From: Stappia sp. BW2 | Lineage (GTDB): Bacteria; Pseudomonadota; Alphaproteobacteria; Rhizobiales; Stappiaceae | DNA length: 64,000 nt | Direction of reading: 5' to 3' | NCBI RefSeq assembly: GCF_008107695.1 | Contig: NZ_VIRG01000060.1 | Coordinates: forward strand, 186,001 to 250,000 | In this document: positions 22,954 to 45,400 of the stretch, in pieces | How the letters are laid out: the number at the start of each line of letters is the position of its first letter | Numbering within the stretch: position 1 is the stretch's first letter | The notes under the pieces: generated by a model | Told to the model about the DNA's origin: nothing | Databases searched by the model: none | The model's input: only the letters and a program-made list of their open reading frames with translations | Position numbers and translations under genes: made by a program

Positions 22954-23067
22954 TTTTTCCTCCCAGAAAAATTTCAGACAGCACACACCGGAAGTTACGG
23001 TGATTGCGCTCCCGTTGCCAGCGCCCATCGATGAGGTTTGCCGGCTGCTGTCACTAAGTATCCGGCT

Positions 23068-24381
23068 TTACATCTGGTTTGGCAGCAGGAGCACAAGCCC
23101 CGGCAGTGTCAGCAAGATGATCAGCCGAAGAATGTCGACCATCCAGAACGGCGTGACACCCTTGAAGATGGTGGCTGTCGGCACATCGCCGACCACAGCC
23201 CGCAACACGAAGACGTTGAGGCCGACCGGAGGTGTGATCAGGCTGATTTCTGTCACCACGACGACGATAATGCCGAACCATACCGGATCATAACCGAGCC
23301 CGGTCACGACTGGAAAGAAGATCGGCACGGTCAACAGCAGCATCGACAGGCTTTCAAAGACACAGCCAAGCGCAATATAGATCAGCAGGATCAGGCCCAT
23401 GACCATCCATGGCGGCAGATTGTAGGCGGTCACCAGATTGCTGAGCGCGGTCGGCAGGCCTGCGATGTTGACGAAGTTTGAAAAGATCCAGGCACCAATC
23501 AGCACGGCAAACAGGCTGGCTGCGGTCATGGCCGTTTCGCGCAGGGCTTCCAGGGTATCGGCGAGGGACAGACGCCTGCGGGCAAGGGCAATCAGAAAAG
23601 CCCCCATTGCGCCCATGCCGGCAGCTTCCGTCGGTGAGAAGGTCAGGTTGATCGGGGGCACGTCGAAGACCCCGTAAAGCCCGCCAATCACCAGAAAGAA
23701 CAGCAACAGAACGGCCCAGACTTCCTTCAAGGCGGACAGTCTGCCGCTCAGGCTCACCCGTTCGCCCGCCGGACCGGCTTTCGGATCGCGCCAGACTGTG
23801 AACTGAACCGCGACGAGGTAAAGAATGACCCCCAGAAGACCGGGAAGGATGCCGGCGACAAAAAGCTTTCCGATAGAGGTTTCGGTCAGGAGACCGTAAA
23901 TGACCAGGATCACTGACGGCGGGATCAGGATGCCGAGCGTACCGCCTGCGGCAATCGAGGCCGTCGACAATTTGTCGGCGTAGCCGAACCGGCGCATTTC
24001 CGGCATGGCCACTTTCGACATGGTGGCGGCAGTTGCAAGTGACGATCCGGAGATGGCGGCAAAGCCACCGCAGGCAACGATGGTTGCCATGGCCAGTCCA
24101 CCGCGGAAATGACCGAGAAACGCATTGGACGCGGCATAGAGCTCGCGGCTGATCCCGGCCTTGTTGACGAGCAGGCCCATGAGAATGAACAGCGGCACGA
24201 CCGAAAGGCCATAGTCCTGGCTTGTGTCGATGATCAGGCGGGCGGTCATGGAAATCGAGGCACGGTACCCCATTTCAATTGTGAAGCCGACCATGCCCAC
24301 AAAGCCCATGGCAAAGGCGATGGGAACGCGCAGCAGAACAAGTGCCAGAACCGCCGCGAATCCGAGAAGTCCTTCAAGCAT
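23068..24381 (-). CDS. dctM: TRAP transporter large permease (DctM)
   Basis: A 437-residue inner-membrane protein with about 12 hydrophobic segments. TRAP DctM features include FAMGFVGMVGFTIEMG, VPLFILMGLLVNKAGISRELYAASNAFLGHFRGGLAMATIVACGGFAAISGSSLATAATM, GTLGILIPPSVILVIYGLLTETSIGKLFVAGILPG, and the late ITPPVGLNVFVLRAVVGDVP. It moves the cargo bound by DctP, driven by a sodium gradient. It overlaps dctQ by eight bases and is followed by the P450 fusion. Confidence 0.95.
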   Translation of the reverse strand: MLEGLLGFAAVLALVLLRVPIAFAMGFVGMVGFTIEMGYRASISMTARLIIDTSQDYGLSVVPLFILMGLLVNKAGISRELYAASNAFLGHFRGGLAMATIVACGGFAAISGSSLATAATMSKVAMPEMRRFGYADKLSTASIAAGGTLGILIPPSVILVIYGLLTETSIGKLFVAGILPGLLGVILYLVAVQFTVWRDPKAGPAGERVSLSGRLSALKEVWAVLLLFFLVIGGLYGVFDVPPINLTFSPTEAAGMGAMGAFLIALARRRLSLADTLEALRETAMTAASLFAVLIGAWIFSNFVNIAGLPTALSNLVTAYNLPPWMVMGLILLIYIALGCVFESLSMLLLTVPIFFPVVTGLGYDPVWFGIIVVVVTEISLITPPVGLNVFVLRAVVGDVPTATIFKGVTPFWMVDILRLIILLTLPGLVLLLPNQM

Positions 24382-24871
24382 GCTGGGGGCTCATCAATTT
24401 CGGTGCGAATATATGGCCGAGACCGCGGACAATGAGGACTGCGGCGGTAATTGCCGTGACGACGGCAATGAACCATCCGACATAGTGCAAGGGCAGGCGC
24501 AGGTATTCCATGACGTCGCCGTAAGACCGGCTCCGTTCGGCGAGATCAAACACGCGCATGGCCGGCAGGATCAGTATCAGGCCGCAAAAGAGATCCGTGA
24601 AGGCGTTGCGCCAGCGGGTCAGTCCGGCCCGCTTGAACATGCCGTCTGTCAGGTCGACGCAGATGTGGCCCTCCTTGGCGGAGACGACCGGCAGGACGGA
24701 GAAAACCATGATTGCCATGAGCAGGCGCGTCATGTCGGCGGCAACTTCAATCGGAGCGTTGAACACCGACCGGAGCACCACGTCGCAAAATGTCATGACC
24801 ATGAGGACGAACAATGCAAACGAGGCTAGAAGCGCCGGCAGACTGGCCGCAAACTTGAGAAGACGGGGCAC
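24374..24871 (-). CDS. dctQ: TRAP transporter small permease (DctQ)
   Basis: A 165-residue membrane protein with four hydrophobic segments. It begins at a GTG after AAGGATCAGGAC. The typical DctQ centre is present: TFCDVVLRSVFNAPIEVAADMTRLLMAIMVFSVLPVVSAKEGHICVDL. It pairs with DctM in the inner membrane. The stop overlaps the dctM start by eight bases; 53 bases separate it from dctP. Confidence 0.92.
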   Translation of the reverse strand: MPRLLKFAASLPALLASFALFVLMVMTFCDVVLRSVFNAPIEVAADMTRLLMAIMVFSVLPVVSAKEGHICVDLTDGMFKRAGLTRWRNAFTDLFCGLILILPAMRVFDLAERSRSYGDVMEYLRLPLHYVGWFIAVVTAITAAVLIVRGLGHIFAPKLMSPQHA

Positions 24872-24924
24872 GTCCTGATCCTTAAGCTACGGGCGGTCCG
24901 GACAAACCGGACCGCCCGGACTCG

Positions 24925-25941
24925 TTAGTTTCCGGCCATTTCCTTCTTGACCATCTCATAGGCGGCTTTCGCATCCACCCCGGCTTCCTCAAGTTCTCCT
25001 AGAACCTTGTCCGTGACTTCCTTGCTGATTTCCTTGAACTTCGCGATGTCATCGTCGCTCGCGGGCGTGATTTTCGTGCCTTCTGCGTTCTTGGTCGCTT
25101 CATAGGCAATCTTGTCGGACTCGTCCCAGGATGCACCTGCCATCCGGCTGGCGGGCTCCCCAAAGACTTGCTCGTCCAGGGCCTTCTGGACATCTTCCGG
25201 CAGGCTATCGAATTTTTCCTGGCTCATGATCACAGCAAAGGAGCCGCGATAGAGACCGCCCGGCATGTCATAAAGATACTTGGCCACTTCGTTCAGCTTG
25301 AAGCCAACACGCTCGCCGACGTTCATCGCCACAGCGTCGGCCGCACCGGATTCCAGTGTTTCATAAACCTTGGGAGCCGGAACGTTGATGCCTATCAGAC
25401 CCAGCGCCGATCCAACGTCACCAGCAACACCGCCGCCGATGCGCGTTTTCAGGCCGTTCATGTCGGCAAGACTGGAAACTTCCTTGCTGGAATGGATCTG
25501 ACCGGGGCCATGGGTGTTGAGCGAAATGACCTTGACGCCGCGATGCTCTTTCAGGTCGGCGAGGTATTTTTCATAAACGCGCCAATAGGCGACGGATGCA
25601 GCTTCCGCGTTGCCTTCATAACCCGGCAGTTCGATCAGCTTCGTCCCGACGAAACGGCCCGGTTGATACCCGTGGAAAATAATAGCCATGTCTGCGGCCC
25701 CATCAAGAACCAGGTCCATCTGGGCCGGGGGCGGTGCGAGTCCGAAGACAAGCTCGCCTGTGACTTCTCCGCCGGTGGCTTCTTCCATCATCGTGATGAG
25801 ATTGGCAAAAATGCCGGTATTCACGCTATGGGTTGGCGGCAGCCAGCTTGAAATCTTGAGAACGGTTTCTGCCGAAAGCGCCGAAACGCTGAGGCTCAGT
25901 GAAACTGCGGCAGCGCCAACAATCCTGAAAAGCGACTTCAT
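24925..25941 (-). CDS. dctP: TRAP transporter periplasmic substrate-binding protein (DctP)
   Basis: A 338-residue secreted protein. Signal peptide about residues 1-24 (MKSLFRIVGAAAVSLSLSVSALSA, cut before ETVLKISSWLPPTHSVNTGIF). The motif LKTRIGGGVAGDVGSALGLIGINVPAPKVYETLESGAADAVAMNVGERVGFKLNEVAKY contains the conserved Arg that binds the ligand carboxylate in TRAP receptors. It opens the dctPQM-P450 run and its promoter region (25942-26320) is shared with the divergent thioesterase gene. A 13/16 match to the palindrome at the head of the oxygenase operon lies about 98 bases upstream, so both may answer to the same MarR protein. The imported acid is probably aromatic, on that basis only. Confidence 0.93.
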   Translation of the reverse strand: MKSLFRIVGAAAVSLSLSVSALSAETVLKISSWLPPTHSVNTGIFANLITMMEEATGGEVTGELVFGLAPPPAQMDLVLDGAADMAIIFHGYQPGRFVGTKLIELPGYEGNAEAASVAYWRVYEKYLADLKEHRGVKVISLNTHGPGQIHSSKEVSSLADMNGLKTRIGGGVAGDVGSALGLIGINVPAPKVYETLESGAADAVAMNVGERVGFKLNEVAKYLYDMPGGLYRGSFAVIMSQEKFDSLPEDVQKALDEQVFGEPASRMAGASWDESDKIAYEATKNAEGTKITPASDDDIAKFKEISKEVTDKVLGELEEAGVDAKAAYEMVKKEMAGN

Positions 25942-26320: not shown

Positions 26321-26749
26321 TTGGACGTACCATTCAAAACCACCCGCATGCTCAACTTCGGAGATTGCGATATCTCCGGAACAGCCTATTTTCCCTCATA
26401 CCTGAACATTCTCAACGGTGTGAACGAGGAATTCTGGCTGAAACTTGGTTATCCCTGGCACAAGATCATCTGGGAGGAACGCTGGGGAACGCCGACCGTC
26501 CATCTTTCCAGCGACTTCTCAAGCCCTTCTTTCTTCGGGGAAGAGCTGGAATTCGAGGTAACCGTACAGCGGGTCGGTCGGTCGTCGGTCACCATGCATC
26601 ACGAAATCAGCTGCAAGGGCGAAAAGCGCTGGTCGAGCACTCAGGTGCTGGCGGCCAGCAATCTCGACGAACATTGCTCCATTCCCTGGCCGGAAGATGT
26701 CAAGGCGGCCTTGCTGGCCTGTATGCCACAGGAACAAAAAGACAGCTGA
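26321..26749 (+). CDS. Acyl-CoA thioesterase, 4-hydroxybenzoyl-CoA thioesterase type (hotdog fold)
   Basis: A 142-residue hotdog protein. I accept the TTG at 26321 because the frame from there (DVPFKTTRMLNFGDCDISGTAYFPSYLNILNGVNEEFW) covers the whole first strand; the next start, ATG at 26348, would cut it. The FGDCDISGTAYFPSY segment corresponds to the 4HBT motif in which an Asp activates water (usually D-x-D-x-x-G-x-x-F/Y). The helix and later strands (WGTPTVHLSSDFSSPSFFGEELEFEVTVQRVGRSSVTMHHEI) fit the fold. It hydrolyses an acyl-CoA thioester, releasing CoA. It faces the acyl-CoA ligase-containing operon, whose last gene converges with it, so clearing stalled CoA esters from that pathway is a reasonable role. 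It is divergent from dctP. Confidence 0.85.
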   Translation: MDVPFKTTRMLNFGDCDISGTAYFPSYLNILNGVNEEFWLKLGYPWHKIIWEERWGTPTVHLSSDFSSPSFFGEELEFEVTVQRVGRSSVTMHHEISCKGEKRWSSTQVLAASNLDEHCSIPWPEDVKAALLACMPQEQKDS

Positions 26750-26765
26750 ACGTTAGGCAGTTCAG
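26746..26765. terminator. Small hairpin over two convergent stop codons
   Basis: CTGAAC (26746-26751) and GTTCAG (26760-26765) with an 8-base loop. The stems include the thioesterase stop on the plus strand and the SDR stop on the minus strand, so one hairpin could serve both genes. The stem is short and there is no T run. Confidence 0.35.
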
Positions 26766-27487
26766 ATCGTCAGGGTTCCGACGCTCGCACCGCCGCAGAC
26801 GTATAACGTCTGTCCGGTCACGAAGCTGTTTTCCGGATCGCAGAAAAACAGGAACGCATTGGTCACGTCCCGGACGTTGCCGATGCGCCCGACCGGAATG
26901 CGTTTGGCAAGGGCTTCCTGTTGCGGGCTGTCCTTTTCGATGATGCCCCAGAAATTGTCGGTCAGGATCGGCCCGGGGGCGACCACATTGACTGTGATGC
27001 CGTGAGGGGCAAGCTCCAGGGCCCAGGTCCGGGCCATGCCGATCATGCCGGCCTTGCTGGCGCTGTAGGCCGTGCGGGTCGGTGCGCCGAGCGCCGCCCG
27101 GGAGGCATTGAACATGACACGTCCGAACTGGCGCGCCTTCATACCCGGCAGGGCCGCCTGCAGAAGCGTCAAGGCCGATCCCAGGTGCAACTGCGCAAGT
27201 CCGGTGATGTCCTCGGGCTTGGCGTCCTCGACAAGGTTGGGCCAGATGAGCCCGGCATTGTGGATCAGGTGGGTGACATCGAACTCCGCCGCAATGGTGT
27301 GGGCAGCGGTCGCAACGGCTTCCGCATCAAGCAGATCGGCTTCCACCGAATGCAGGTTCGGGTGAGACTTTTCCGGGGCGGATCTTGCAACGGACACGAC
27401 CTTGTAGCCCTGACCGAGAAGCCGTTCGGCCAGGTCAGCACCAATCCCCTTGTTGCCACCGGTAACGACTGCCGTAAATTCACTCAT
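26762..27487 (-). CDS. Short-chain dehydrogenase/reductase (SDR), classical
   Basis: A 241-residue classical SDR. Start at the ATG overlapping the cyclase stop (ATGA). N-terminal MSEFTAVVTGGNKGIGADLAERLL is the TGxxxGIG cofactor motif, NAG lies at 77-79, and the triad is complete: Ser129, Tyr141 and Lys145 in NASRAALGAPTRTAYSASKAG. It oxidises an alcohol or reduces a ketone with NAD(P). It is the last gene of the eight-gene oxygenase operon. If the operon degrades indole-3-acetate, interconversion of dioxindole and isatin is one possible reaction, but this is a guess from position. Unlike the SDR-like half of the DUF35 fusion two genes upstream, it looks catalytically competent. Confidence 0.9.
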   Translation of the reverse strand: MSEFTAVVTGGNKGIGADLAERLLGQGYKVVSVARSAPEKSHPNLHSVEADLLDAEAVATAAHTIAAEFDVTHLIHNAGLIWPNLVEDAKPEDITGLAQLHLGSALTLLQAALPGMKARQFGRVMFNASRAALGAPTRTAYSASKAGMIGMARTWALELAPHGITVNVVAPGPILTDNFWGIIEKDSPQQEALAKRIPVGRIGNVRDVTNAFLFFCDPENSFVTGQTLYVCGGASVGTLTI

Positions 27488-28257
27488 TCCGCCACCATCG
27501 CCAGAACCCGAAGCGGGCTGCCGGTTCCATTCTTGATTTTGAGGGGGGCTGCGATCAGCACGGCGCCGGTCGCCGGCAGTTGATCCAGATTGGCCAGACA
27601 TTGCAGCCCGTATTTTCCTGCGCCATGGAGAAAGTAGTGGGCAGGATAGGGCGGAACGTAATGTGCGCCCTGACCTGCATCCGTTCCGACCGTCTCTGTG
27701 CCGAAACCGCGGATGTTCCGCTCCTCGATCAGGAAGCGGATGGCCTCCGGCGTTGGTCCGGGCGAATGCGGCCCGTCCGCGCGCATGTTCAGATACTCGG
27801 CGCCTCTACGCTTGGACCAGTCGGTACGCATCAGCACCCAGGCATCTGCCGGAATACGGCCATGGTCACTTTCCCAGCCGGCGATGATCTCGGGCGTCAG
27901 TTCGAAATCGTCGTTCTCTGCCGCGCCTTTGGAGCAATCGATCACCACAACAGGCCCGACAAAAGCCTCTGCCGGTATCTCGTCAACCGAGCCGTTCGGC
28001 ACGTCCTTGCCGGAAATCCAGTGCGAGGGCGCATCAAAATGGGTGCCGGTGTGCTCGCTCATGGAAATGTTGTGCCATTTCCATGCCGGACCGCGGTGAT
28101 CGTAGGCGCTGACTTCCTCCATCCGGAAACGTGCGCACTGACCGAATTCGGGCGGCAGAACGATCACCGGAAAATCCGGGTCGAGCGTGTGGGTCAGGTC
28201 GACAATTCTGACGGCTCCGGAAGCAAGGCCGGAAACAAGCATGTTCAGAGTGCTCAT
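27484..28257 (-). CDS. Cyclase-family metal hydrolase, isatin-hydrolase-like
   Basis: A 257-residue member of the cyclase/kynurenine-formamidase fold. The start is the ATG at 28255-28257 that overlaps the preceding stop. The metal-binding signature HxGTHxDxPxH is intact: His69, His73, Asp75, His79 in EHTGTHFDAPSHW; further features are DLTHTLDPDFPVI, VVVIDCSKGAAEN, WVLMRTDWSKR, and GTETVGTDAGQGAHYVPPYPAHYFLHGAGKYGLQCLANLDQLP. The aromatic residues around the metal (AWKWHN, GFGTETVGTD) and overall layout resemble isatin hydrolases, the best studied of which come from the genus Labrenzia. Such an enzyme hydrolyses isatin to isatinate using a manganese ion. Its operon contains enzymes able to make isatin from indole-3-acetate. 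Other cyclase-family activities remain possible. Confidence 0.85.
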   Translation of the reverse strand: MSTLNMLVSGLASGAVRIVDLTHTLDPDFPVIVLPPEFGQCARFRMEEVSAYDHRGPAWKWHNISMSEHTGTHFDAPSHWISGKDVPNGSVDEIPAEAFVGPVVVIDCSKGAAENDDFELTPEIIAGWESDHGRIPADAWVLMRTDWSKRRGAEYLNMRADGPHSPGPTPEAIRFLIEERNIRGFGTETVGTDAGQGAHYVPPYPAHYFLHGAGKYGLQCLANLDQLPATGAVLIAAPLKIKNGTGSPLRVLAMVAE

Positions 28258-29510
28258 GCGCCTTCTCCCCCTTGCGTGAGTTCGCGTTCCAGAACCTTCG
28301 GGTCCCGTCGCCAGCGTTCGCGGATCTCCATGGCAACGTCGCCGCACCACACATCTTCAAGGCCCTGCTGCAGCCCTTTGACGACTGCCTTTGCCAACGC
28401 CTTTGACGTGACCTTGGGCGGCGGCACCGGCTGGGTCCAGTCGTCGTCATCCGGCCCGGTGAAGACGGTCATCACACGCAGCCCCGATGACCGGAATTCA
28501 CCGCGCAGAGACTGACACAGCGAATACGCCGCCGCGTTCGTGGCGGAAAAGCAGCCGAAGTCCGGGGCGTTGGAGAGCGCGAAGACGGAAAGAACATTCA
28601 CCCAGGCCACCGCCGAATTGACGCCATCGTTGGTGCGGGCGCACATGCCGGGCCCGAAGGCCTGGGCAAGGCGCATCAGGCCGAGATAGTTGGTCTCCAT
28701 TTCTTCGCGCGCGAAGGTGGTATCGCTGCGCGCCAGAACGCCGCCCGGCCGGAGGAAGCGGGCGTTGTTGACCAGAATATCCGTCTTGCCGCCGATTTCC
28801 CCGGCCAGCCGCTGCACCGATGCGGTATCCGTTACATCGAGTGGCAGCACGCTGACACCATCGAGCCCGGAAAGCAGATCGCGGTTGGCGTGCGGTCGCC
28901 AGCTTTCCGCTTCGCCAACAAAGACGGTTGAGGCACCCGCTTCCAGCAGCGAGGTCACCAGAGCTGGTGTGTTCGGGTTTCGCAGGTCCGTGATCAGGAT
29001 GCGCCTGTGCTTTGGATCGGCCGAAAGGGCACGCATTTGCGGATCGTCTTCCATATTGCTTGTCCTGTTCGTGGGCACTGCCAGCAAGACGCCCTGGCCG
29101 GATGCGTCGAGACGATTGAGAAGGGTTACCGCCTCACCGCGTGCGCAGTCGCCATGCAAATGGCACAGGACCACGGGGCCGGCCTCCAGTTTCACAGAGC
29201 CCATGCGCCAGGGTGTTCGTTCCCGGAAATAAAGATTGATCGATGTGCGGATACTGGTCTCCGCCAACAGCGTGCCCGCCGGTGAGATGTCCTGCCATTC
29301 CAGTCCGGTTGACAGACAGTGGCCGCAAACGTCCCGGGGGGGATATTGCACCGTGCCACAGTCTTCGCAGACCTGCAGTGCGAAGCGGCCCTCCGCCGCT
29401 GCTGCCGTCAGTCCGAGGGCCGCACGGGAGCGGGCTTCCGGTGGGCGCAGGGGAGACTGCGTGCGCTTTTGCGGGTCTTTTTTGGGGGGAGGAGAAAGCG
29501 GTGTGCTCAT
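28254..29510 (-). CDS. DUF35 zinc-ribbon/OB protein fused to a degenerate SDR domain
   Basis: A 418-residue two-domain protein. Residues about 40-150 are a DUF35 unit: zinc ribbon Cys48, Cys51, Cys62, Cys65 (CEDC and CGHC), then an OB-fold (SPAGTLLAETSIRTS...GSVKLEAGPVVLCHLHG). Residues about 168-400 follow SDR layout with LPLDVTD, LVNNA (246-250) and Ser308. However, the glycine-rich cofactor loop is absent (ILITDLRNPNTPALV), and the YxxxK pair is Phe321 and Asn325 in CFSATNAAAY. The SDR half therefore looks non-catalytic or altered. DUF35 proteins partner thiolase-fold enzymes; here the thiolase-like gene overlaps directly upstream (ATGA). The pair recalls Ltp2-ChsH2 aldolases of steroid side-chain breakdown, where DUF35 completes the active site and binds the acyl-CoA. 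The SDR part may dock or shield the released ketone. Confidence 0.88.
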   Translation of the reverse strand: MSTPLSPPPKKDPQKRTQSPLRPPEARSRAALGLTAAAAEGRFALQVCEDCGTVQYPPRDVCGHCLSTGLEWQDISPAGTLLAETSIRTSINLYFRERTPWRMGSVKLEAGPVVLCHLHGDCARGEAVTLLNRLDASGQGVLLAVPTNRTSNMEDDPQMRALSADPKHRRILITDLRNPNTPALVTSLLEAGASTVFVGEAESWRPHANRDLLSGLDGVSVLPLDVTDTASVQRLAGEIGGKTDILVNNARFLRPGGVLARSDTTFAREEMETNYLGLMRLAQAFGPGMCARTNDGVNSAVAWVNVLSVFALSNAPDFGCFSATNAAAYSLCQSLRGEFRSSGLRVMTVFTGPDDDDWTQPVPPPKVTSKALAKAVVKGLQQGLEDVWCGDVAMEIRERWRRDPKVLERELTQGGEGA

Positions 29511-30682
29511 GCCGTGCTACCTGCTTTCAGGATAGCCGCGCTCGTACAGACGCCGCGGTCGTAATTGATCATGCCGAAGCCGGACACCATCGCGGTCGTG
29601 GCATCCGCCACTTGGGTGCCTCCCGCAGTACCCAGAACCTGGCGAAGCGCTTCCACCAGGCCGATGAAACCGCCCGCAGCGCCAGCCTGGCCTGCCGATA
29701 GTTGGCCACCAGACGTGTTGTGCGGAAAATCTCCAGAAATCGTCAGGTCGCGGCTTCGGACGAAATCCGGGCCGTCGCCCTTTTCGCAGAACCCGAGATC
29801 CTCGATCTGCATCATCGAGATGACGGGATAATCATCATAGGTCTGCAAGAGATCAATGTCGTCCGGCGTACAGTCCGCCATGGCATAAAGTTCTTCCACG
29901 TCGAGCGTCCAGCCACCGCGCAGCTGCACGGGATCTTCTGCATGGGCGTTGTGGCGCTCGATCGTGCCGCCGATCACGGCATAGGGCAGGTCCCGACGCT
30001 CTGCTTCCTCAACGGACATGACAAGAAAACATTCGGACCCGGCACAGGGCATGACACAGTCAAATAGAGCGATCGGGTCTGCAATCGGACGGGCGCGAAG
30101 ATATTGTTCGAGCGTCAGCGATGTTTTCATCACCGCGTTCGGATTGCGCAGGGCATTGGCGCGCTGCGCCACGCAGATCCTGCCGAAATCCTCTCGTGTA
30201 GCGCCATATTCGTGCATGTATCTGTCGGTCAGAAGAGCGAAATTGGCATTAGGGCCGCCAAAACCGTAGGGGTAGGACGCGTCCTGGGCGAAGCGGGAAA
30301 AGCTCGACAGCAGATTTCTGAAGCTGTCGATATGGTTGGTGTCGCCGGCAACGCAGGCGACGATATCGGCATCGCCCGCCTGGACCGCACGTGCGGCCCG
30401 GCGCAGGGCGATAACACCACTGGCGCCGCCCATCGGAATATTGTCCAGCCATCTGGGACACAGGCCAAGATGCTGCGTCAACCCGACGGCCGTATCCGGA
30501 AACAGGGTGAAACTGGCAACCGAAAACCCGTCGACATCTGCAAGTCTCAAGCCTGCGGCCTGAAGGGACCCACGCAACGCGCCTGCAATCCACCAATGGG
30601 CTGTCTCGATGGAGTAACGCTGATAGGGCACTGAAACCGGTGCAGTGATCGCGACACCCTCATAGCTCTGTCGTTTTCCCAT
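29507..30682 (-). CDS. Thiolase-fold acyl-CoA lyase (Ltp2-like aldolase) lacking thiolase catalytic residues
   Basis: A 391-residue thiolase-superfamily protein. The start is the ATG at 30680-30682 (TGATG with the ligase stop). The fold is clear: IETAHWWIAGALRGSLQAAGL, NIPMGGASGVIALRRAARAVQAGDADIVACVAGD, MPCAGSECFLVMSVEEAERR, HNTSGGQLSAGQAGAAGG, MVSGFGMINYDRG. But the acylated Cys of thiolases (CxSG) is Gly86, the His of GHPxG is Gln332, and the C-terminal CxGGG Cys is missing. Claisen chemistry is thus unlikely. Ltp2-type proteins have the same losses and do retro-aldol cleavage of beta-hydroxyacyl-CoA with Tyr residues; Tyr282 and Tyr285 (LLQTYDDYP) are candidates here. With DUF35 next door, a retro-aldolase making acetyl-CoA (or another acyl-CoA) and a ketone is the best reading. 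Confidence 0.85.
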   Translation of the reverse strand: MGKRQSYEGVAITAPVSVPYQRYSIETAHWWIAGALRGSLQAAGLRLADVDGFSVASFTLFPDTAVGLTQHLGLCPRWLDNIPMGGASGVIALRRAARAVQAGDADIVACVAGDTNHIDSFRNLLSSFSRFAQDASYPYGFGGPNANFALLTDRYMHEYGATREDFGRICVAQRANALRNPNAVMKTSLTLEQYLRARPIADPIALFDCVMPCAGSECFLVMSVEEAERRDLPYAVIGGTIERHNAHAEDPVQLRGGWTLDVEELYAMADCTPDDIDLLQTYDDYPVISMMQIEDLGFCEKGDGPDFVRSRDLTISGDFPHNTSGGQLSAGQAGAAGGFIGLVEALRQVLGTAGGTQVADATTAMVSGFGMINYDRGVCTSAAILKAGSTA

Positions 30683-32295
30683 CAACTGGCCTGCCGTTTT
30701 TTCATGTGTCCGGTGAAGACTGTATCGGGATGGTCCAGAAGCTGCAGGGCCAAATCCTTCAAGGCAGCTCGCTGGATCTTCTGTGTCGGCGTCAACGGCA
30801 GCTTGTCGACAAAGGCGATGTAGCCCGGAGCCTTGTAATAGGCCATCTGCTCCAGACACCAGCGTGTGATTGCCGCGGCCTTTTCAGGGCTCGGGGTCTT
30901 CACCTTCAGGCAGGCAAAAACCTCGTCGCCGCGCACAGGGTCAGGGACGGGGGCAATGCCGGCGGCCTCAATGTCGGGATGACGCATCAGGATCGACTCC
31001 ACCTCCACAGCCGCAATGTTTTCGCCCGACCGCCGGATGACGTTTTTCTTGCGGTCGACAAAAAACAGGTTGCCGTCAGTTCCCCGGCGCACAATGTCGC
31101 CGGTGTGGAACCAGCCGTCTTTCCAGGCTTCTTCCGTTGCCGCCTCGTCCTTGTAGTATTCCGAAAAGAAGCCGTAACGCGGATCCGGCCCCGCGTGGCG
31201 TACTAGCAATTCACCTTGAACTGCCTCATCGCCATTCTCGTCGACAATCCGGCAGTTCACGCCCTTGCTCGGCTTGCCGATGCTCGCCTGGGCCACCAGC
31301 CGATCTTCGCCAGAGGCGGCAATCACGGCGCCAGCGCCGGTCTCGGTCATCGCCCAGGCTTCCACCAGCGGAAAGCCGAAACGGTTCTCAAAAGCGATCT
31401 GCAGCTTCGGGTCCACACCTGCGCCAAACCCGAAGCGGACTTCATGCGCGCGATCCGCAGGGGAGGGGTCAAAGCCCGTCAGCATGGAGGGCATCACACC
31501 CAGATAATGCAGGCAGGTTGCCCGGGACGCAGCGACATCCTGCCACCACGTGCGTGGGTGAAAACGATCCAGCACGGTGAGGCAGCCGCCGACCGTGACC
31601 ATTGCCATGAACGAGTAGGCCATGGCGTTCATATGAAAGACGGGCAGGGGCGTGATCATGCGCTCGCCCTCTTCCGTCAGCGTCGCTAATCCGCCCACAC
31701 CGGCATACCAGCGCCCGGCGAGCAGGAAATAGGTATTGGGCAGCACGCAGCCCTTCGGTTTGCCGGTGGTGCCCGAGGTATAGAGGATAGCTGCCTCGCG
31801 GGCCTCTCCTTCCAGTAGCCGGGCAGTGACAGCCTCGTCCCGTGGCCGGGGGATCGGCTCTCCGGGAGCGATCACAGTCGCGGCGATGCCGGCAGCGGCG
31901 ACAGCTCTCTCAAGCTCCGTCTTGCGGTCGGCAATCGAAACGAGCAGCGCCGGTTCGGAATGACCGATGAGATATTCCAGCTCCGCGGCTCGCAAGTCAG
32001 GATTGACCGGCACCACGGACCCGCCAATCCGGTTCACCGCAAGCCAATGGAGGAAGAACGTGGGCCGGTTCTCCAGAAGCAGGGCCACGCGCATGCCGGC
32101 GCCATAGCCTGCCTCCATCAGGTCCCGTGCGAGCGCGTCGACCGTCTGCAAGGCCGCCCCGTAGGTCAGGTCCCCGGCTGGTATGCCGTAGATATCCGCA
32201 GTCTTGGGCAGAACCTTCAGAAACGGCCGGTCCGGAAATTTCTCAGCCGCGGCAGCGAAGGCGGCATAGACTGTATCTGGCGGTGTCGCGGTCAT
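30682..32295 (-). CDS. Acyl-CoA ligase (ANL superfamily), probably aryl-acetate/aromatic acid specific
   Basis: A 537-residue AMP-forming CoA ligase. Motifs: P-loop A3 AAILYTSGTTGKPKGCVLPN, A5 VEAWAMTETGAG, A7 DGWFHTGDIV, A8 GNLFFVDRKKNVIRRSGENIAAVEVE, and A10 LTPTQKIQRAALK with the catalytic Lys. It activates a carboxylic acid as adenylate, then forms the CoA thioester. It overlaps the oxygenase beta gene upstream (ATGA) and the thiolase-like gene downstream (TGATG). Order implies that the oxygenase product is CoA-activated before C-C cleavage. In the auxin reading it would make dioxindole-3-acetyl-CoA. Specificity cannot be read directly. Confidence 0.93.
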   Translation of the reverse strand: MTATPPDTVYAAFAAAAEKFPDRPFLKVLPKTADIYGIPAGDLTYGAALQTVDALARDLMEAGYGAGMRVALLLENRPTFFLHWLAVNRIGGSVVPVNPDLRAAELEYLIGHSEPALLVSIADRKTELERAVAAAGIAATVIAPGEPIPRPRDEAVTARLLEGEAREAAILYTSGTTGKPKGCVLPNTYFLLAGRWYAGVGGLATLTEEGERMITPLPVFHMNAMAYSFMAMVTVGGCLTVLDRFHPRTWWQDVAASRATCLHYLGVMPSMLTGFDPSPADRAHEVRFGFGAGVDPKLQIAFENRFGFPLVEAWAMTETGAGAVIAASGEDRLVAQASIGKPSKGVNCRIVDENGDEAVQGELLVRHAGPDPRYGFFSEYYKDEAATEEAWKDGWFHTGDIVRRGTDGNLFFVDRKKNVIRRSGENIAAVEVESILMRHPDIEAAGIAPVPDPVRGDEVFACLKVKTPSPEKAAAITRWCLEQMAYYKAPGYIAFVDKLPLTPTQKIQRAALKDLALQLLDHPDTVFTGHMKKRQAS

Positions 32296-32765
32296 GGCAG
32301 CAACTGAATATTGCCGAAGGCGGCGTCGCAGTTGAGGATGTCGACCCGCTTGTTGGCAATCCTGATCGCGCCGTCGACCACCTTCAGTTCGTGCGTAGCC
32401 GTCAGCGCCAGCAGAAACTGCTCGTCGAGGCGTGTTTCGACGTAATGCATGGAAGTGTTGGTGACGATCCGGTCACCCTCCATCTCATCGATGAAGGGCC
32501 GCTGGATGACATGGTGACAGCGGCTCTTGGGCTTCTGGCTGAAGGTTCTGGCCCCGTTCAGTCGTTCCACCCGCAAACGCAACATGAATATGTCCTCATA
32601 CAGCAGCGACGTCACGAGATGCGGATCGGTCTGCTTGTAGTCGAGTGGCATCCAGTAATGCCCGTCCTCCAGCCAAAGCGACAGCCATTCGCTGAAGCGT
32701 CCCTCGTCCAGCATCCTTGCTTCGTCGTAGATGAAGTCGATGACCTCTTCCCTGGAAATTGCCAT
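32292..32765 (-). CDS. Ring-hydroxylating oxygenase beta subunit
   Basis: A 157-residue NTF2-like (cystatin-like fold) small subunit. The start is the ATG at 32763-32765, sharing one base with the alpha-subunit stop (TGATG); upstream frame is non-homologous. Sequence features: REEVIDFIYDEARMLDEGRFSEWLSLWLEDGHYWMPLDYKQTDPH, MLRLRVERLNGARTFSQKPKSRCHHVIQRPFIDE, LALTATHELKVVDGAIRIANKRVDIL. It has no cofactor and stabilises the alpha3beta3 hexamer. It lies between the alpha subunit and the CoA ligase. Confidence 0.93.
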   Translation of the reverse strand: MAISREEVIDFIYDEARMLDEGRFSEWLSLWLEDGHYWMPLDYKQTDPHLVTSLLYEDIFMLRLRVERLNGARTFSQKPKSRCHHVIQRPFIDEMEGDRIVTNTSMHYVETRLDEQFLLALTATHELKVVDGAIRIANKRVDILNCDAAFGNIQLLP

Positions 32766-34075
32766 CACGCCTTCTCCATCGTAGCTGTCATGAATTTCAC
32801 CCAGGCATCGAACTGGTTGCGCATCTGCCGTTCCGTGGTGCCGTTTTCCACGGCCTCCTCGGTGAAGTCTTCGTCTCCGGTTTTCAGGCGTTGAATGTTC
32901 ACCCATTCCATGCCGTTGGACATGAGGCCTTCCTGGGCGCGCTCGTACATTTCCAGATCGTCGTGCCCGACCATCGACGTCGGTGCATTGATCATCCGGT
33001 TGTACATGGCGGTGCGTGCCAGCAGTTCATCCGGTGCCCCGACGAGTCGGTAGATGTAACTTTCAACCAGCGTCTTGTCCGGCCCCAGCGGAATGAAGTT
33101 CCGCAGCTGCTGGATCGGACCCTTGATCATGATGTTCGGGAAATAGACCGTGTTGTGCCGGTTCTCGTCGAGAATTTCCTTGGCGCGGTCCTTGCCATGG
33201 GTCGCGCTCAGAGCCTCGAAATAGCCCGGTATCGCGGAATAGTCGGAGTGGATCGAGTGATGCACGCCCGTATGTCCGTGGCCGTTCGGCCAGGTGCGGA
33301 TGCCCATGTTCTCGAAGAACTCGTAAGGCGACATGAAGGGCGCAATGATTTCCATTGCGGGTGGGCGTGGCTCCGGATTTCCCATCTCCTTCCAGATGTT
33401 CACCGCGGTTCCGGCGGAACTTTCATGGGCAACCATCGGGTGGCAGGTGTCGGTCTGGTTTTCAACCAGCATCTTCCAATTGCACTTGTGCATGTAGCGC
33501 AGCGGCGGCCCGGCGATTTCCAGCCGCCCTTCGGGGGACCGGTCGACCATGTTGTCGATGGAGCTGATGCTGTCGCCGAAATAGTCTTCAAAACCGATGC
33601 CTTCGGCAGCCAGCCGGGCAAAGACAAAACCGCGATAGTTCCGGACCGCACCGACCGGTGTCATGCCCTTGGCATTCTCGGTCTCTTCGAAACCGGTATT
33701 CTCATAGCCCTTCTTCAGGGGGATCGCGAGCAGACAGCCATTCGTCTTGAACGACCAGGCATGGTAGGGGCAACGGAAGAACTTGCCGGTGTTGCCTTCC
33801 CGGTCGATGGCGATCTTTGTGCCCTTGTGCGGGCAACGATTGTAAAGAACGTAGATCTCATCATCCGAGTGACGCACCTGAATGACCGGCTGATCGCCAA
33901 TCTGCGTGGTGAAATAGTCGCCTTTTTTCGGGGTCTGGCTTTCGTGGCCGACAAACACCCAGGTGTTTGCGAACAGGTGCTGCATTTCCAGTTTGTAGAT
34001 TTCCGGGCACGTATAGACGTCCCGGTGGACTTGCGGCCCCGTAAACAGAGCGGCGATCTGGCTGGCCGTTCGCAT
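32765..34075 (-). CDS. Rieske ring-hydroxylating oxygenase alpha subunit (IadD-like candidate)
   Basis: A 436-residue catalytic subunit. The Rieske centre is CPH...CPYH: Cys81, His83, Cys102, His105. The mononuclear iron site is in VENQTDTCHPMVAH: bridging Asp209, ligands His212 and His217, with the third acidic ligand further on. It adds one or two oxygen atoms to an aromatic ring using electrons from the adjacent reductase. In the plus-strand antisense direction the frame is open for 765 codons, but codon pattern and motifs make the minus strand the real one. Oxygenases of this group attack benzoate-, anthranilate-, salicylate- or indole-acetate-type acids. The presence of an isatin-hydrolase-like gene and retro-aldolase in the operon points to indole-3-acetate, as reported for iad-type loci of Variovorax and Bradyrhizobium. 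Confidence 0.95.
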   Translation of the reverse strand: MRTASQIAALFTGPQVHRDVYTCPEIYKLEMQHLFANTWVFVGHESQTPKKGDYFTTQIGDQPVIQVRHSDDEIYVLYNRCPHKGTKIAIDREGNTGKFFRCPYHAWSFKTNGCLLAIPLKKGYENTGFEETENAKGMTPVGAVRNYRGFVFARLAAEGIGFEDYFGDSISSIDNMVDRSPEGRLEIAGPPLRYMHKCNWKMLVENQTDTCHPMVAHESSAGTAVNIWKEMGNPEPRPPAMEIIAPFMSPYEFFENMGIRTWPNGHGHTGVHHSIHSDYSAIPGYFEALSATHGKDRAKEILDENRHNTVYFPNIMIKGPIQQLRNFIPLGPDKTLVESYIYRLVGAPDELLARTAMYNRMINAPTSMVGHDDLEMYERAQEGLMSNGMEWVNIQRLKTGDEDFTEEAVENGTTERQMRNQFDAWVKFMTATMEKA

Positions 34076-34102
34076 GCTGGCTCCTCCCTGGAATGCGAAA
34101 CC

Positions 34103-35035
34103 CTAAAGATCGAGGACAAGCCGCGCACATTTCGCGCGGCTGACACAAATCTGCATAACCTTTCCGGATGCCTTTTCTGCATCCGACAGCACAACGTCAC
34201 GGTGATCGGGCGTTCCGCTGATCACATCCGCCTGGCAGATGCCGCAGTCGCCGCGTTGACAGTCGTACAACACGTCGACACCGGCAGCTTCCAGAGCCTC
34301 GATGATGGTCTGGTCCGAAGCAACCGTCACCACCTGACCCGTGCTGTGAATTTCCACTTCGAATGGCGCGTCACCGGTTTGCGCCTGCGGTGCACTGAAG
34401 AGCTCAACATGAATGGCGTCTTCCGGAAGCCCTGCATCGGCTGCGGCCGTACGTGCGGCATCGATCATCCCCTTGGGGCCGCAGACGTAAAGATGCGTTC
34501 CGGAGGGCTGGGCTTTCATCAAGGCCGTCAGGTCGAGCGGATCGGTGTCGTCAAAATAGAAATGGGTGCTATCGCCAAAGGCAGCCTTGAGCTTGCCGGC
34601 AAACCCCATTCTGGATGCCGTCCGGGCCGAATAATGCAATTCGAAGGAACGATCTTTCAACTTCAACCGCGTCGCCATCGAGATCAGCGGTGTGATGCCG
34701 ATGCCGCCTGCCAGAAGCAGGACGTGAGCCGCGTCTTCAACAAGCGGAAAGTCGTTGTTCTGTTCGCTGACGGAGATCGATTGACCAGCGTTCAAGGCAT
34801 GCATGGCCTTGGAGCCGCCCTGGCCATCCTCTTCCCGCTGCACAGCCACGGTATAGAGCTCATCAGCCTCTGGCCAGTCGATGAGGGAGTAGTCGCGCTC
34901 CCCCAGGGGGCCGAGGTCAAATGTAATATGAGCGCCGGCTTCATAGGCAGGCAATGGCGCGCCTGCCTCCGCGCGGAACCTGAAAACACGAATCTGATCG
35001 GTTTCCGGTTCTATGCTTTCAAGAACAAGATCCAC
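34103..35035 (-). CDS. FMN/2Fe-2S oxygenase reductase (phthalate dioxygenase reductase/VanB type)
   Basis: A 310-residue reductase starting at a GTG that follows AGGAGGAGG at eight bases. FMN binding is in ERDYSLIDW, NAD binding in LLLAGGIGITPLISMA and VCGPKGMIDAA, and the plant-type 2Fe-2S cluster in CQRGDCGICQADV with a fourth Cys in MQICVS. It passes electrons from NAD(P)H to the Rieske oxygenase encoded 27 bases downstream. It is the first gene of the operon; the 16-bp palindrome lies 25 bases upstream of its start. The module is a relative of the C-terminal half of the P450 fusion at 20605-22953. Confidence 0.94.
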   Translation of the reverse strand: MDLVLESIEPETDQIRVFRFRAEAGAPLPAYEAGAHITFDLGPLGERDYSLIDWPEADELYTVAVQREEDGQGGSKAMHALNAGQSISVSEQNNDFPLVEDAAHVLLLAGGIGITPLISMATRLKLKDRSFELHYSARTASRMGFAGKLKAAFGDSTHFYFDDTDPLDLTALMKAQPSGTHLYVCGPKGMIDAARTAAADAGLPEDAIHVELFSAPQAQTGDAPFEVEIHSTGQVVTVASDQTIIEALEAAGVDVLYDCQRGDCGICQADVISGTPDHRDVVLSDAEKASGKVMQICVSRAKCARLVLDL

Positions 35036-35059
35036 CTTAAATGCCTCCTCCTTTAAAAA

Positions 35060-35075
35060 ATATGAAATTTCATAT
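35060..35075. promoter_or_regulatory. Perfect 16-bp palindrome, MarR operator candidate
   Basis: ATATGAAATTTCATAT is a perfect palindrome in the 122-base divergent region between the oxygenase-operon start (35035) and the MarR gene (35158). Size, AT-richness and position fit a MarR dimer site that controls both directions. A 13/16 copy lies upstream of dctP. Confidence 0.8.
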
Positions 35076-35157
35076 ATAATGAGTCAAGACTCTTTTTTTC
35101 TTGATTGGTCCGGGATAAAGGACGCTTTCAAAAGTGTGCATTGATGGAGGAAGGGTT

Positions 35158-35616
35158 TTGACCCAGACGCCGGGAAAATTCGTTTCTTCTTACCTGCTGT
35201 ACCTTCTGGCGGCGTCGAGTGAAGCGGCCAGCCACCAGTTTCACGCGCGTGTCCGGGAATTGGGCCTGCGAGTGCCGGAATGGCGCGTCCTGGCCTGTCT
35301 TTACGATCAGGACGGACTGATGATCACGCAGCTGGCGCGATATTCTCTGATGGAACAATCCAGAATGACACGCATTGTCGACCAGATGGAAAAGCGCGGT
35401 CTGGTCGTTCGCAAAAGCGATGAGGGCGATGGCCGCCGTGTCCGCGTCCATCTGACGGAGGCTGGGCAGAAATTGAGCTCAGACGTGGTCGAAGAGGCAA
35501 GGGAACACGAAAGAACCCTGCTGTCGGCCCTCCAGGAGGTCGATGCGGAGCGCATCAAGCCGTCTCTGGAAAGGCTTCTGGACTCTCTCAACAGCTGGAA
35601 CAGTGCCAAGCAATAG
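35158..35616 (+). CDS. MarR-family regulator, divergent from the oxygenase operon (IadR-like candidate)
   Basis: A 152-residue MarR protein. I start it at the TTG at 35158, seven bases after GGAGG; a GTG at 35134 would add eight residues without a clear RBS. Fold features: SYLLYLLAASSEAASHQFHARVRELGLRVPEWRVLACLYDQDGLMITQLARYSLMEQSRMTRIVDQMEKRGLVVRKSDEGDGRRVRVHLTEAG. This has the recognition helix and the DxRRxxxxLT wing. It probably binds the palindrome at 35060-35075 and releases it on contact with an aromatic acid. MarR regulators of this position control iad-type auxin catabolism and bind indole-3-acetate; whether this one does is inference. It also may act at the dctP box. Confidence 0.92.
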   Translation: MTQTPGKFVSSYLLYLLAASSEAASHQFHARVRELGLRVPEWRVLACLYDQDGLMITQLARYSLMEQSRMTRIVDQMEKRGLVVRKSDEGDGRRVRVHLTEAGQKLSSDVVEEAREHERTLLSALQEVDAERIKPSLERLLDSLNSWNSAKQ

Positions 35617-42479: not shown

Positions 42480-45400
42480 CTAAAACGGAATGCTGAGCCT
42501 CAGAGATCCGCTGTTGGTGGCCAGTTTTTCCGAGAAGCGGCCGTTGTACTCAAGCCGCAGGTCGACCCCTTCGATAGACGTGAGCTGAAGGCCGGCGCCA
42601 ATGGTGGCAAACAGGTCTTCATGTTCGACAGATGTCTTGAAAGACCCGGTTCCCCCGGAGCGGTTGGTGAAGCGGGCATCGGTTTGCCACTCGTTGCTGG
42701 ACAGAAACGAGACGCCGAGTTTGCCGTAAACCCGCAGGTCCTTGCCATCCTTGTAGCGCAGACGGCTGCCGAACTCGACGGAAGGCGTTGCGGCGAAATT
42801 CCAATGGCCCGTGGAGTCGAATTCCAGCCCGTAATCTCCGCTTTCCCGGTAGTTGCCGACCCTGGAATAGATCGCGTCAAAGTCGATGTAGGGTTTGACG
42901 TAGACGTTTGTTGCCGCAAACGTGCGGGCGATACGCGCCCTGATGGAGCCTGCCAGCACGTCGGGCGAGCTTGAGATGGTTTCGTTTAGGTCTGAAATCG
43001 ACAGGTTGCGGTCGAACCGCGTGCTGCCATAGCTGCCGGCGGCGGCGGCAGAAAGGGTCCATGCACCCATCTCCCGCTTCAGGCTCGCCCCGAGATATCC
43101 CGACTTGCCGTCTCCCTTGACGGTTCCGGAGGCCTGGGAAATCCAGGTCTGCTGAAAGGCCGCGGCGCCGCCGATGAACCAGCCCGGAGCGATTTCCCGT
43201 TGCCCGCCGAGCTGATAGGTCAGCGCGTCGGCTTTATAGCTCGGCGAATTGCCGATGGCCGCGCGGTGGCCTGTGCCGCCGGTTGCCCGTGCCCAGCCAC
43301 AGGAGCCCTCTGTTATGCCCGCGCCATCGCCTTCGAAGACGGGGCAGCTCATCAAGCTGTCACCGAAGGTCAGCATTTCGAATGTCTGTTCAACGACGGC
43401 AGCGAGCCCGGTGCGCGGCAGAAGCTGGTTCAGGGTGTCTGCATAGTCTCCAGACTGATTGTCGACCTCATCGGCAATAGCCCCGAACAACGTGCCGAAC
43501 ACGTTGTTGCCGCCACGATCCCAGATATTCTGAAGGTTTTCCGCAACGGCCTTCTGATCCCGGTTGAGCTTCACCTTGCCGTTGGGGGTAAAGTCGGCGC
43601 CGGTTACCTGGAAATAATAGTCGGAGCCTTCCGGATTGAACAGGTAATCAAAAATGAGAGAGTTCTGCGGGGTGAGGGTACCTGAAACAGATCCGCCGAC
43701 CGACAGAACCTTTGTCTTCCTGTCCGGAAGAAGGCTGATGGTCTTCAGGCCGAGTGTGCCTGCCAGCGTCGCGTCGCCGCGCACCTCCAGCCAATCGGAA
43801 TCGAAATTGTTCAGGTCGATGTCCGCGACCAGAAAACCCTGTGCGCTTTGCGTGAAGTTGCCGGTAATCACTGTCTTGCCGGGGTCGCGTGTGCGGCCCA
43901 AAACGAAACGGCCGTTGTTGATCACATTTGCATCATACAGATAGCCGTCAGCAAGGGTGTTGGGGGAATTGTTGGTGACCGTCCCGGCGCTGCCGCCGTC
44001 GGCATTGGTCAGGACGACATCGCCGTAAAGCGATGCGGTGTCGTTGACCGTTACATCGAGGGTTGCCCCGTCAGCGGTCGTTCCTGTGCCGGTGTACCAG
44101 ACGGCATAGGAGCCGCTGTCGTCGGTTCCGTTGCGCGATGCGCCCGACTGGACAATGGCATCGTCGTTCAGAACCAGCGTGTTGTTGAGCCCGTTGGAGA
44201 CCCTGATAGCCGCTGCGTCTGTGTCCGTGCCGCCCTGAACACTGCCGTTTCCGTCAACCGTAATCCCGACTGTCCCGTTGCCGTCAGCACCCTGGCTTTG
44301 CGCAAAGACGCCTGACGAACGCGCGCCGGTGGCTGCCACCTGGCTTGCGATGTCCAGATTGATAGCGCCTCCGGTTCCCGTGCTGTCCGTTGACATGAGG
44401 CCGGCCGAGCCGCCCGAGCCAGTGCCCGAAATGCCACCGCCGCCGCCAATGGACTGAGCGATAATGCCAATTGACTCGTCGCCGGTGACGGTGATCGGCG
44501 CATCGATATCCAGTGTGATCTGCCCGCCGTTGCCGCTGGCACCGCCGGAGGTCAGGTTCGCGGTGGCATTGGTCATGGAACTGCCGGTCGCATCGCCTGC
44601 CAATCCGCCGCCGCCACCGATGGATTGGGCCACCAGGCCGAAAGCGCCGTCGCCGCTGGTCTGGATACCGGCACCGCCGGTTAGCTGGAACGTGACCGTA
44701 TCGCCATTGCCAGCCGCCCCGCCCGTGCCGCCAAGAGCCAGATCAAGCCCGCCTTCAACGCTGCCGGTGACACCATACCCGCCGCCGCCGCCAATGGACT
44801 GGAGCAGGACGCCATGAGAGCGGTTGCCGTAGGTCGCAATTGTCGTGTCCATTGCCAGATCGATTGTGCCGCCATTGCCGGCCACACCGCCTGAACCACC
44901 CACAGAGACGCTCAGCTCACTGCCGTCGACGCGCGTTGTTTCCGCGCTGCTGCCGACCCCGCCGGTGCCGCCGCCACCGCCGATTGACTGGGCAACCAGG
45001 GCAACAGCATCATTGCCGTTGGTCGTGATCGTTACGGCGCTGGTGTCATAGGTGTGAACCTGGCCGCCATCGCCGCCTGCACCACCTGTACCGCCGCCGT
45101 CGCCACCGATTGCCAGTGTGCCCGTCTGGTTGTCCGAGCCATCACCGCCTTGGCCGCCACCACCACCAATGGATTGCAGCGTCATGCCGGTGGCGCCGAA
45201 ACCGGCCGTGTTGACGAAATTGTTGTCGCCGCTATTGAGCCAGACAGCGACTTCACCACCGTCCCCGCCGGAGCCGCCCTTGCCGCCGACGGCAAGCTCG
45301 ATGGAGGCGCTGACTTCGCTGCCGCTGGCCGTGGACGAGCCGCCCTGACCGCCGCCGCCGCCAATTGATTGCAGGACGACACCGTCCGCCCAGGCACCTT

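Follow-up and report, generated by a model that had tools for sequence, protein, structure and literature searches.

How is the acetyl side chain of auxin (indole-3-acetate, IAA) removed in the iad pathway? Earlier work left this step open, the available text of one 2025 preprint relying on annotation for it (PMC12633357). The question is raised again by a nine-gene locus of Stappia sp. BW2 within a stretch of 64,000 nucleotides (contig NZ_VIRG01000060.1 of assembly GCF_008107695.1, positions 186,001 to 250,000), hereafter called the window, whose own numbering is used for all coordinates. We consider it probable that the locus is an iad operon in which the thiolase-fold protein IadG and its partner IadH release isatin by retro-aldol cleavage. 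The new part is this chemistry and not the operon. The coenzyme A (CoA) thioester, the retro-aldol step, isatin as the direct product and the operator are what we infer here, and the use of IAA by IadCDE, IadJ as the source of C10H9NO4 and the requirement for F, G, H and I were demonstrated in Variovorax, as far as the available texts report.

Eight genes run on the minus strand in the order C-D-E-F-G-H-I-J and encode a reductase, the alpha and beta subunits of a Rieske oxygenase, a CoA ligase, the thiolase-fold protein, a fusion of DUF35 and SDR domains, a cyclase-family hydrolase and a second SDR protein, and a MarR gene (R) diverges from them on the plus strand (Table 1). All nine genes of the original prediction were recovered in place with the Pfam domains it had assigned; the starts of several open reading frames, which fell too early in the program's list, were corrected. 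Its overlaps at all junctions except that between reductase and alpha subunit were found as well: six of seven junctions overlap (TGATG at D/E and F/G, ATGA at E/F, G/H, H/I and I/J), and C/D is a 27-base gap. For comparison, we used 80 loci, the best 80 of at least 508 relatives, retrieved via the two IadG peptides IETAHWW and FDCVMPC; the retrieval itself selects in part for conservation of these stretches, which contain Cys209 and Cys213, and the YDDY motif discussed below lies outside both patterns. Alignment rows with less than 80% query coverage were dropped, and 81 of 81 rows were kept for G (80 loci plus the window), 77 of 81 for H and 75 of 77 for I, window included. The full one-strand order C to J is present in 47 of the 80 loci, many of the others being rearranged or interrupted by contig ends; the order also occurs in beta-proteobacteria. 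The gene arrangement is not a product of chance.

Comparison of gene order with iad loci, to which the original prediction had pointed, gave colinearity from iadC to iadJ in all seven Variovorax-type loci (L169 and L192 to L197, with a broken H frame in L193). The genus of these loci is presumably Variovorax: 29 of its 31 genomes match Variovorax IadD at E ≤ 1e-110, the best match being 85–98% identical. From C to J, the window proteins share approximately 44, 56, 45, 53, 64, 52, 62 and 55% identity with their Variovorax-type counterparts. The closest solved structures to the oxygenase alpha subunit are the IadD entries 9o71 and 7yls, and all seven published metal ligands are conserved. Of the nine residues that define the IAA pocket of IadD according to the available text of PMC10374108, eight are retained (two of the nine double as iron ligands) and Leu211 is replaced by Gln207; an unrelated Rieske substrate was rejected on these pocket residues. 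The MarR protein is closest to 3cdh, followed by the MarR_73 entries (7kfo/7kki). The MarR_73 contacts to IAA, Ser28, His32, Arg46, Trp45 and Tyr15, recur as Ser33, His37, Arg51, Trp50 and Tyr20, and the positions of Ala18 and Val65 differ; Ser, His and Arg are reported to hold the IAA carboxylate (available text of PMC9613470). R was matched in 43 cases, and 35 R–C gaps (34 loci plus the window) were usable. Among these, the palindrome core ATGAnnnnTCAT occurs in 31 (shuffle mean 0.135) and TATGAnnnnTCATA in 23 (shuffle mean 0.01; 200 base shuffles in each case), and TATGAnnnnTCATA is found once in the whole window. The palindrome between iadR and iadC is proposed as the IadR operator.

Judged by pocket residues, repressor contacts and colinearity, the locus is an iad auxin-catabolic operon under MarR control, as predicted. 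This operon type is known, and its product route and several structures are already published. It resembles the iad locus of Variovorax paradoxus CL14 in the eight genes and their order, the IadR-type MarR, the IAA pocket and the isatin hydrolase, as described in the available texts of PMC9613470, PMC10374108 and PMC12633357. The differences are that the MarR gene adjoins and diverges from iadC in the window, whereas it lies beside iadA in CL14, that a TRAP transporter stands beside the window operon, and that Variovorax-type loci carry a second oxygenase pair. This second alpha/beta pair is 46–48% identical to the window D and shares its stretch with the first pair in each of the seven Variovorax-type loci (e.g., L192 5453–7200), and a second IadD-like match is present in all 29 Variovorax-type genomes that have the first.

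With regards to the published pathway, the available text of PMC12633357 reports lower anthranilate in strains deleted for iadCDE, F, G, H, I or J, and accumulation of C10H9NO4, assigned to IadJ, in the F, G, H and I deletions. In that preprint, IadCDE is described as a monooxygenase, and its product is said to undergo hydration before oxidation by IadJ, a dehydrogenase placed by mutants and isotope tracing as the maker of dioxindole-3-acetic acid (dioxindole-3-acetate, DOAA); in another work, 2-oxindole-3-acetate was reported in vitro (PMC10374108, available text). Two claims of the original prediction are overturned by these reports, namely that the oxygenase alone yields DOAA and that the last SDR is an outlier, since this SDR is IadJ. 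Its sequence agrees with an SDR dehydrogenase, TGxxxGIG being present in 64 of 64 rows and Y[SG]A[ST]K in 52 of 64. The original prediction as a whole is thus partly supported: the iad operon and the fit of a retro-aldol step stand, the latter as our reading, and the oxygenase product and the role of the last SDR do not.

The preprint relied on annotation for F, G and H, which made IadG a ketothiolase and IadH an alcohol dehydrogenase (PMC12633357, available text). The position of the thiolase nucleophile is Gly (Gly85/86) and that of the second thiolase Cys is Asp284 in all 81 rows, and the His of NxHGG (position 324) is replaced by Ser in 75, Asn in 5 and Gly in 1. Every row examined therefore lacks the nucleophilic Cys, the second Cys and the catalytic His of ketothiolases and SCP2-type thiolases, and a ketothiolase role for IadG was rejected on these missing residues. 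The predicted lyase without the thiolase Cys/His/Cys was thus found (Gly85/86, Asp284 and Ser324 in the window), though other cysteines are conserved (C110, C209 and C299 in 81/81, C213 in 79/81). Invariant in all 81 rows are Gly85, Gly86, Tyr282, Asp283, Asp284, Tyr285, Gln327 and Gln332. The YDDY motif formed by residues 282 to 285 is also unbroken in the 20 beta-proteobacterial rows compared together with the window, in which the His is replaced by Ser, Asn or Cys.

These features are reminiscent of the steroid retro-aldolases Sal and Ltp2. In sequence matches, Sal (PDB 9myr) ranks first and Ltp2 (6ok1) third, and a Foldseek search with the AlphaFold2 model of IadG (mean pLDDT 82.3, pTM 0.87) places Sal first (E 7.1e-27) and Ltp2 second (2.6e-25); given the modest margin, this ranking supports the likeness without proving it. 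By alignment, Tyr302, Cys304, Gln347 and Gln352 of Sal correspond to Tyr282, Asp284, Gln327 and Gln332, and the equivalent Tyr is reported as the base in both Sal and Ltp2 (PMC12329534, available text). Tyr282, Asp284, Gln327 and Gln332 are accordingly proposed as candidate catalytic residues. The Sal-Shy(DUF35) and Ltp2-ChsH2(DUF35) systems share with IadG the thiolase fold, the lost nucleophile and the Tyr of YDxx (PMC12329534, available text), and in all three the DUF35 partner sits within a two-domain protein. They differ in the motif, which is YDCY in Sal, YDHF in Ltp2 and YDDY in IadG, in the fusion partner of DUF35, which is a hydratase in the Sal and Ltp2 systems and an SDR half in IadH, and in the substrate, a steroid as opposed to the heterocycle proposed for IadG. 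In a quick FastTree tree of part of the rows, the IadG rows group with L012, the node uniting the IadG rows having a low support value of 0.239; two YDDY proteins, L013 and L014, stand next to this group at a greater distance, and the Sal-like YDCY and Ltp2-like YDHF proteins lie apart from it. IadG is probably neither Sal nor Ltp2 and would constitute a separate branch; because a check for their second catalytic residue found it absent from IadG, it is graded as working like them only.

The chemistry of the substrate points in the same direction. In DOAA-CoA, the beta carbon is ring C3, which bears the hydroxyl, the aryl, the amide carbonyl and the side chain. A tertiary C3 alcohol of this kind cannot be oxidised to the beta-ketone needed by a thiolase. 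Since C3 cannot become a ketone before cleavage, thiolysis has no substrate, whereas a retro-aldol reaction on DOAA-CoA yields the C3 ketone of isatin and acetyl-CoA in one go. The masses balance, DOAA (C10H9NO4) being equal to isatin (C8H5NO2) plus acetate (C2H4O2). Isatin plus 2H is C8H7NO2, so that retro-aldol cleavage followed by reduction amounts to a net loss of C2H2O2, equal to that of the reductive side-chain removal inferred in the preprint. Host enzymes can carry out the reduction of isatin. A related precedent is Ltp2, whose retro-aldol reaction is reported to act on a C17 hydroxyl on the steroid ring (PMC12329534, available text), and a CoA thioester was also inferred in the available text of PMC12633357.

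The genes downstream of iadG agree with isatin as the product. IadI differs from PDB 5nnb in 8 of 257 aligned residues (approximately 97% identity), and His69, His73, Asp75, His79, Asp193, His207 and Gln219 are present in 75 of 75 rows, in agreement with the metal and catalytic residues of isatin hydrolase; the metal-site motif HxG[T/A]HxDxPxH is present as well. Gln219, the residue that distinguishes isatin hydrolase from kynurenine formamidase, is also retained in the beta-proteobacterial comparison. Mn-dependent isatin hydrolysis was demonstrated for the near-identical Labrenzia aggregata isatin hydrolase A (5nna, 5nnb), with which all seven residues are shared, and the words 'operon' and 'gene cluster' are absent from the available text of that study (PMC6117287). 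By its sequence, IadI is isatin hydrolase A: the original prediction, which had called it isatin-hydrolase-like, was right about the family and too weak in its wording. A broad amidase or a kynurenine formamidase was rejected on Gln219 and the near-identity to isatin hydrolase A. Furthermore, H directly follows G in all 80 loci, and I follows H in 76, the remaining four ending inside H at a contig end. No lyase pair in these loci was thus observed to lack a neighbouring hydrolase, as expected if the product of the lyase is isatin. Isatin hydrolase also exists without G-H: a B paralogue of the window genome, 50% identical to the window enzyme, lies elsewhere (L204, C28:414500–434400), near an indolepyruvate-oxidoreductase-like alpha/beta pair and two FAD oxidoreductases.

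Taken together, the following route is proposed. IadC would pass electrons to IadDE, which would oxidise IAA at the pyrrole ring, and IadJ would make DOAA. IadF would then form DOAA-CoA, a beta-hydroxyacyl-CoA with its hydroxyl on the fully substituted C3, and the IadG-IadH complex would cut the C3–CH2 bond by a retro-aldol reaction. In this step, Tyr282 would accept the proton of the C3 hydroxyl, the acetyl-CoA enolate would depart and C3 would become the isatin ketone; Asp284 or a neighbour would reprotonate the enolate, the identity of this acid being a guess. In the manner of the Sal and Ltp2 systems, the DUF35 half of IadH would cap IadG, and the SDR half of IadH would serve in the window as a scaffold or substrate gate. 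IadI would hydrolyse isatin to isatinate, from which anthranilate would be formed by enzymes outside the gene set, and IadR would free the ATATGAnnnnTCATAT operator upon binding IAA. Genes resembling an indolepyruvate oxidoreductase (IorAB type) lie near many iad loci (beta in 39 and alpha in 30 of the 100 sequences searched), and such a pair could act on isatinate, because isatinate is a 2-oxo acid, and decarboxylate it oxidatively. This step stays a guess, as a cloned iadC-K2 region excluding iadAB restored anthranilate (PMC12633357, available text). Decarboxylation of the side chain was considered and rejected, as the operon holds no decarboxylase gene and the published F, G, H and I deletions lower anthranilate.

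Several observations weigh against a retro-aldol release. The main problem is accumulation: the iadI deletion, as well as a strain with iadCDEFGH and JK2 and without iadI, accumulates C8H7NO2, the formula of dioxindole, and not isatin, and the authors infer a reductive removal of the side chain (PMC12633357, available text). According to the same text, no other projected intermediates were detected between DOAA and C8H7NO2, and four aromatic deuteriums are retained downstream, which does not separate retro-aldol cleavage plus reduction from reductive removal. We propose, by mass only, that the accumulating compound is isatin reduced in the cell. Moreover, the second acid of Sal (Cys304) or Ltp2 (Tyr344) is absent from IadG, Asp284 and Gln332 standing there in 81 of 81 rows each, and exchange of Cys304 in Sal for Ala, Ser or His is reported to abolish activity (PMC12329534, available text). 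The conserved Cys110, Cys209, Cys213, Cys299 and His244 make another catalytic group possible. In the fold search, a putative thiolase (9.6e-25) and other thiolase-fold entries trail Sal and Ltp2 closely, and model confidence is poor at residues 122–142. YDDY also occurs in the distant relatives L013, L014 and L015, and YDDF in L021, of which L015 and L021 fall outside the IadG group. An assay of IadG was not found in the literature searched. Within that literature, most subscription papers being beyond reach, no retro-aldol auxin route was found either, which is no claim that it is absent from print; 'retro-aldol' and 'isatin' co-occur only in the available text of PMC6390333, where they concern vanillin and indigo, respectively, and the available text of PMC6221969 does not contain 'aldol'.

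The alternative that survives best keeps the retro-aldol step and lets the SDR half of IadH also reduce isatin to dioxindole in some species, as a real intermediate or a reservoir. The predicted DUF35-SDR fusion is borne out by the domains, four zinc-binding Cys being present in the zinc ribbon in 77 of 77 rows; its SDR half is closest by fold to 5u4s and lacks dehydrogenase motifs in the window, YxxxK and GxxxGxG being found in 0 of 77 window-type rows. In beta-proteobacterial IadH, Phe or Trp takes the place of the catalytic Tyr in 18 of 20 rows, and in the Variovorax-type proteins the replacement is Phe in 7 of 7 with the Lys retained (FSASK). The remaining two beta-proteobacterial rows, L135 and L142, retain YSASK, which also counts against a purely structural SDR half, and it may be active in some species. 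Although this and the dioxindole of the cultures speak for isatin reduction by IadH, isatin hydrolase uses isatin, and we regard the alternative as unlikely.

Less likely still is the published reading, in which IadG acts as a ketothiolase (acetyl-CoA acetyltransferase), IadH acts as an alcohol dehydrogenase, both remove the side chain reductively together with IadF to give dioxindole (C8H7NO2), and IadI works on this product as a broad amidase. It draws on the accumulation of C8H7NO2 without IadI and on annotation (PMC12633357), and Variovorax cultures were found to contain dioxindole, isatin and isatinic acid (PMC9613470; available texts in both cases). However, the thiolase residues are missing from every IadG row examined, C3 of DOAA-CoA cannot become a beta-ketone, IadH lacks the SDR motifs or their Tyr in the rows given above, and the isatin hydrolase glutamine is retained in IadI; retro-aldol cleavage is better supported by sequence, fold, synteny and chemistry. 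That the operon serves to degrade a different aromatic acid and is iad-like in parts only, as the Gln at the Leu211 position, the two differing repressor contacts and an IAA turnover inferred from sequence in this strain might suggest, is very improbable in view of eight of nine IAA-pocket residues, the repressor's carboxylate triad, full Variovorax-type colinearity and a 97% identical characterised isatin hydrolase.

A strong D (250 bits) is absent from the examined stretch in 16 of the 80 loci, and eight of these 16 are flanked by the complete 10 kb on either side. Four of these eight genomes have D elsewhere (67–92% identity), and in the draft genomes of L084 (Mesorhizobium), L089 (Ochrobactrum) and L103 and L108 (Neorhizobium) no close IadD was found, only distant Rieske proteins being present (32–34% over partial length). 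Near the F-G-H-I module, a copper amine oxidase (79%) and an aldehyde dehydrogenase (80%) are common to L084 and L089, a luciferase-like monooxygenase is encoded in L103 and a flavin reductase in L108. We lean slightly towards a wider picture, in which IadG represents a third, non-steroid branch of thiolase-fold retro-aldolases (YDDY, with Asp replacing the Cys of Sal or the His of Ltp2) that splits a heterocyclic tertiary alcohol, isatin is the true first ring product and dioxindole a side product, and F-G-H-I also runs without IadCDE in some rhizobia, fed by other oxidases or plant-made oxidised auxins.

Table 1. Features of the iad locus and its flanks (window coordinates).
Feature	Position	Strand	Evidence
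iadC-like reductase, 2Fe-2S domain, GTG start	34103..35035	-	Pfam Fer2, NAD_binding_1; 43-44% identity to Variovorax-type counterpart
iadD-like Rieske oxygenase alpha subunit	32765..34075	-	571 bits to PDB 9o71 (Variovorax IadD)
iadE-like beta subunit	32292..32765	-	Ring_hydroxyl_B; 42-47% identity to Variovorax-type counterpart
iadF-like acyl-CoA ligase, proposed dioxindole-3-acetate:CoA ligase	30682..32295	-	AMP-binding; 52-54% to Variovorax-type counterpart
iadG-like thiolase-fold lyase, proposed retro-aldolase	29507..30682	-	Thiolase_C_1; Sal/Ltp2 matches; YDDY
iadH-like DUF35 zinc-ribbon/OB plus SDR-fold half	28254..29510	-	zf-ChsH2, OB_ChsH2_C, adh_short
iadI-like isatin hydrolase (isatin hydrolase A)	27484..28257	-	Cyclase domain; ~97% identical to 5nna/5nnb
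iadJ-like SDR dehydrogenase, proposed dioxindole-3-acetate maker	26762..27487	-	adh_short_C2; 50-56% to Variovorax-type counterpart
iadR-like MarR regulator	35134..35616	+	MarR; 175 bits to 3cdh, 86 bits to 7kfo/7kki
Perfect palindrome ATATGAAATTTCATAT between iadR and iadC, proposed operator	35060..35075	none	
4HBT-type thioesterase converging on iadJ, accessory at most	26321..26749	+	4HBT_2
TRAP transporter dctPQM, candidate uptake system	23068..25941	-	DctP, DctQ, DctM

Among the flanking genes, matches to both DctM and DctP were found in 35 of the 80 iad loci. The 4HBT thioesterase was matched in 11 of the 100 sequences searched, window included (87–96% in four other Roseibium/Labrenzia loci and 64–72% in L051, L053 and L072), and may clear stalled CoA esters. 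The TRAP genes are adjoined by a cytochrome P450-reductase fusion with a 2Fe-2S domain (20605–23028, minus strand), which we take to be CYP116B-like and which has a 91% match in R. aggregatum (L037). An open reading frame of 2238 residues (42480–49196, minus strand) has no Pfam match at 1e-5. To the left of the window, overlapping its start by approximately 500 bases, lies a set (L205, C61:169000–186500) with an acyl-CoA-dehydrogenase-type flavin monooxygenase, an amidase, Rieske alpha and beta subunits, a 2Fe-2S reductase, a flavin reductase and TRAP parts, which is iac-like by domain content, so that both aerobic routes for auxin may be present on a single contig of this genome. The iac operon of Pseudomonas putida 1290 likewise proceeds via dioxindole-3-acetate according to the papers, but is set apart by its published description, since it uses different enzymes and ends in catechol. 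On nine plasmid records that bear the names Roseibium or Labrenzia, IadG is present at 94–95% identity, which indicates that plasmids can carry the gene in this genus.

If the retro-aldol assignment is true, two enzymes would be reassigned in a pathway that is already being transferred into root bacteria, and the thiolase-fold aldolases would extend beyond steroids.

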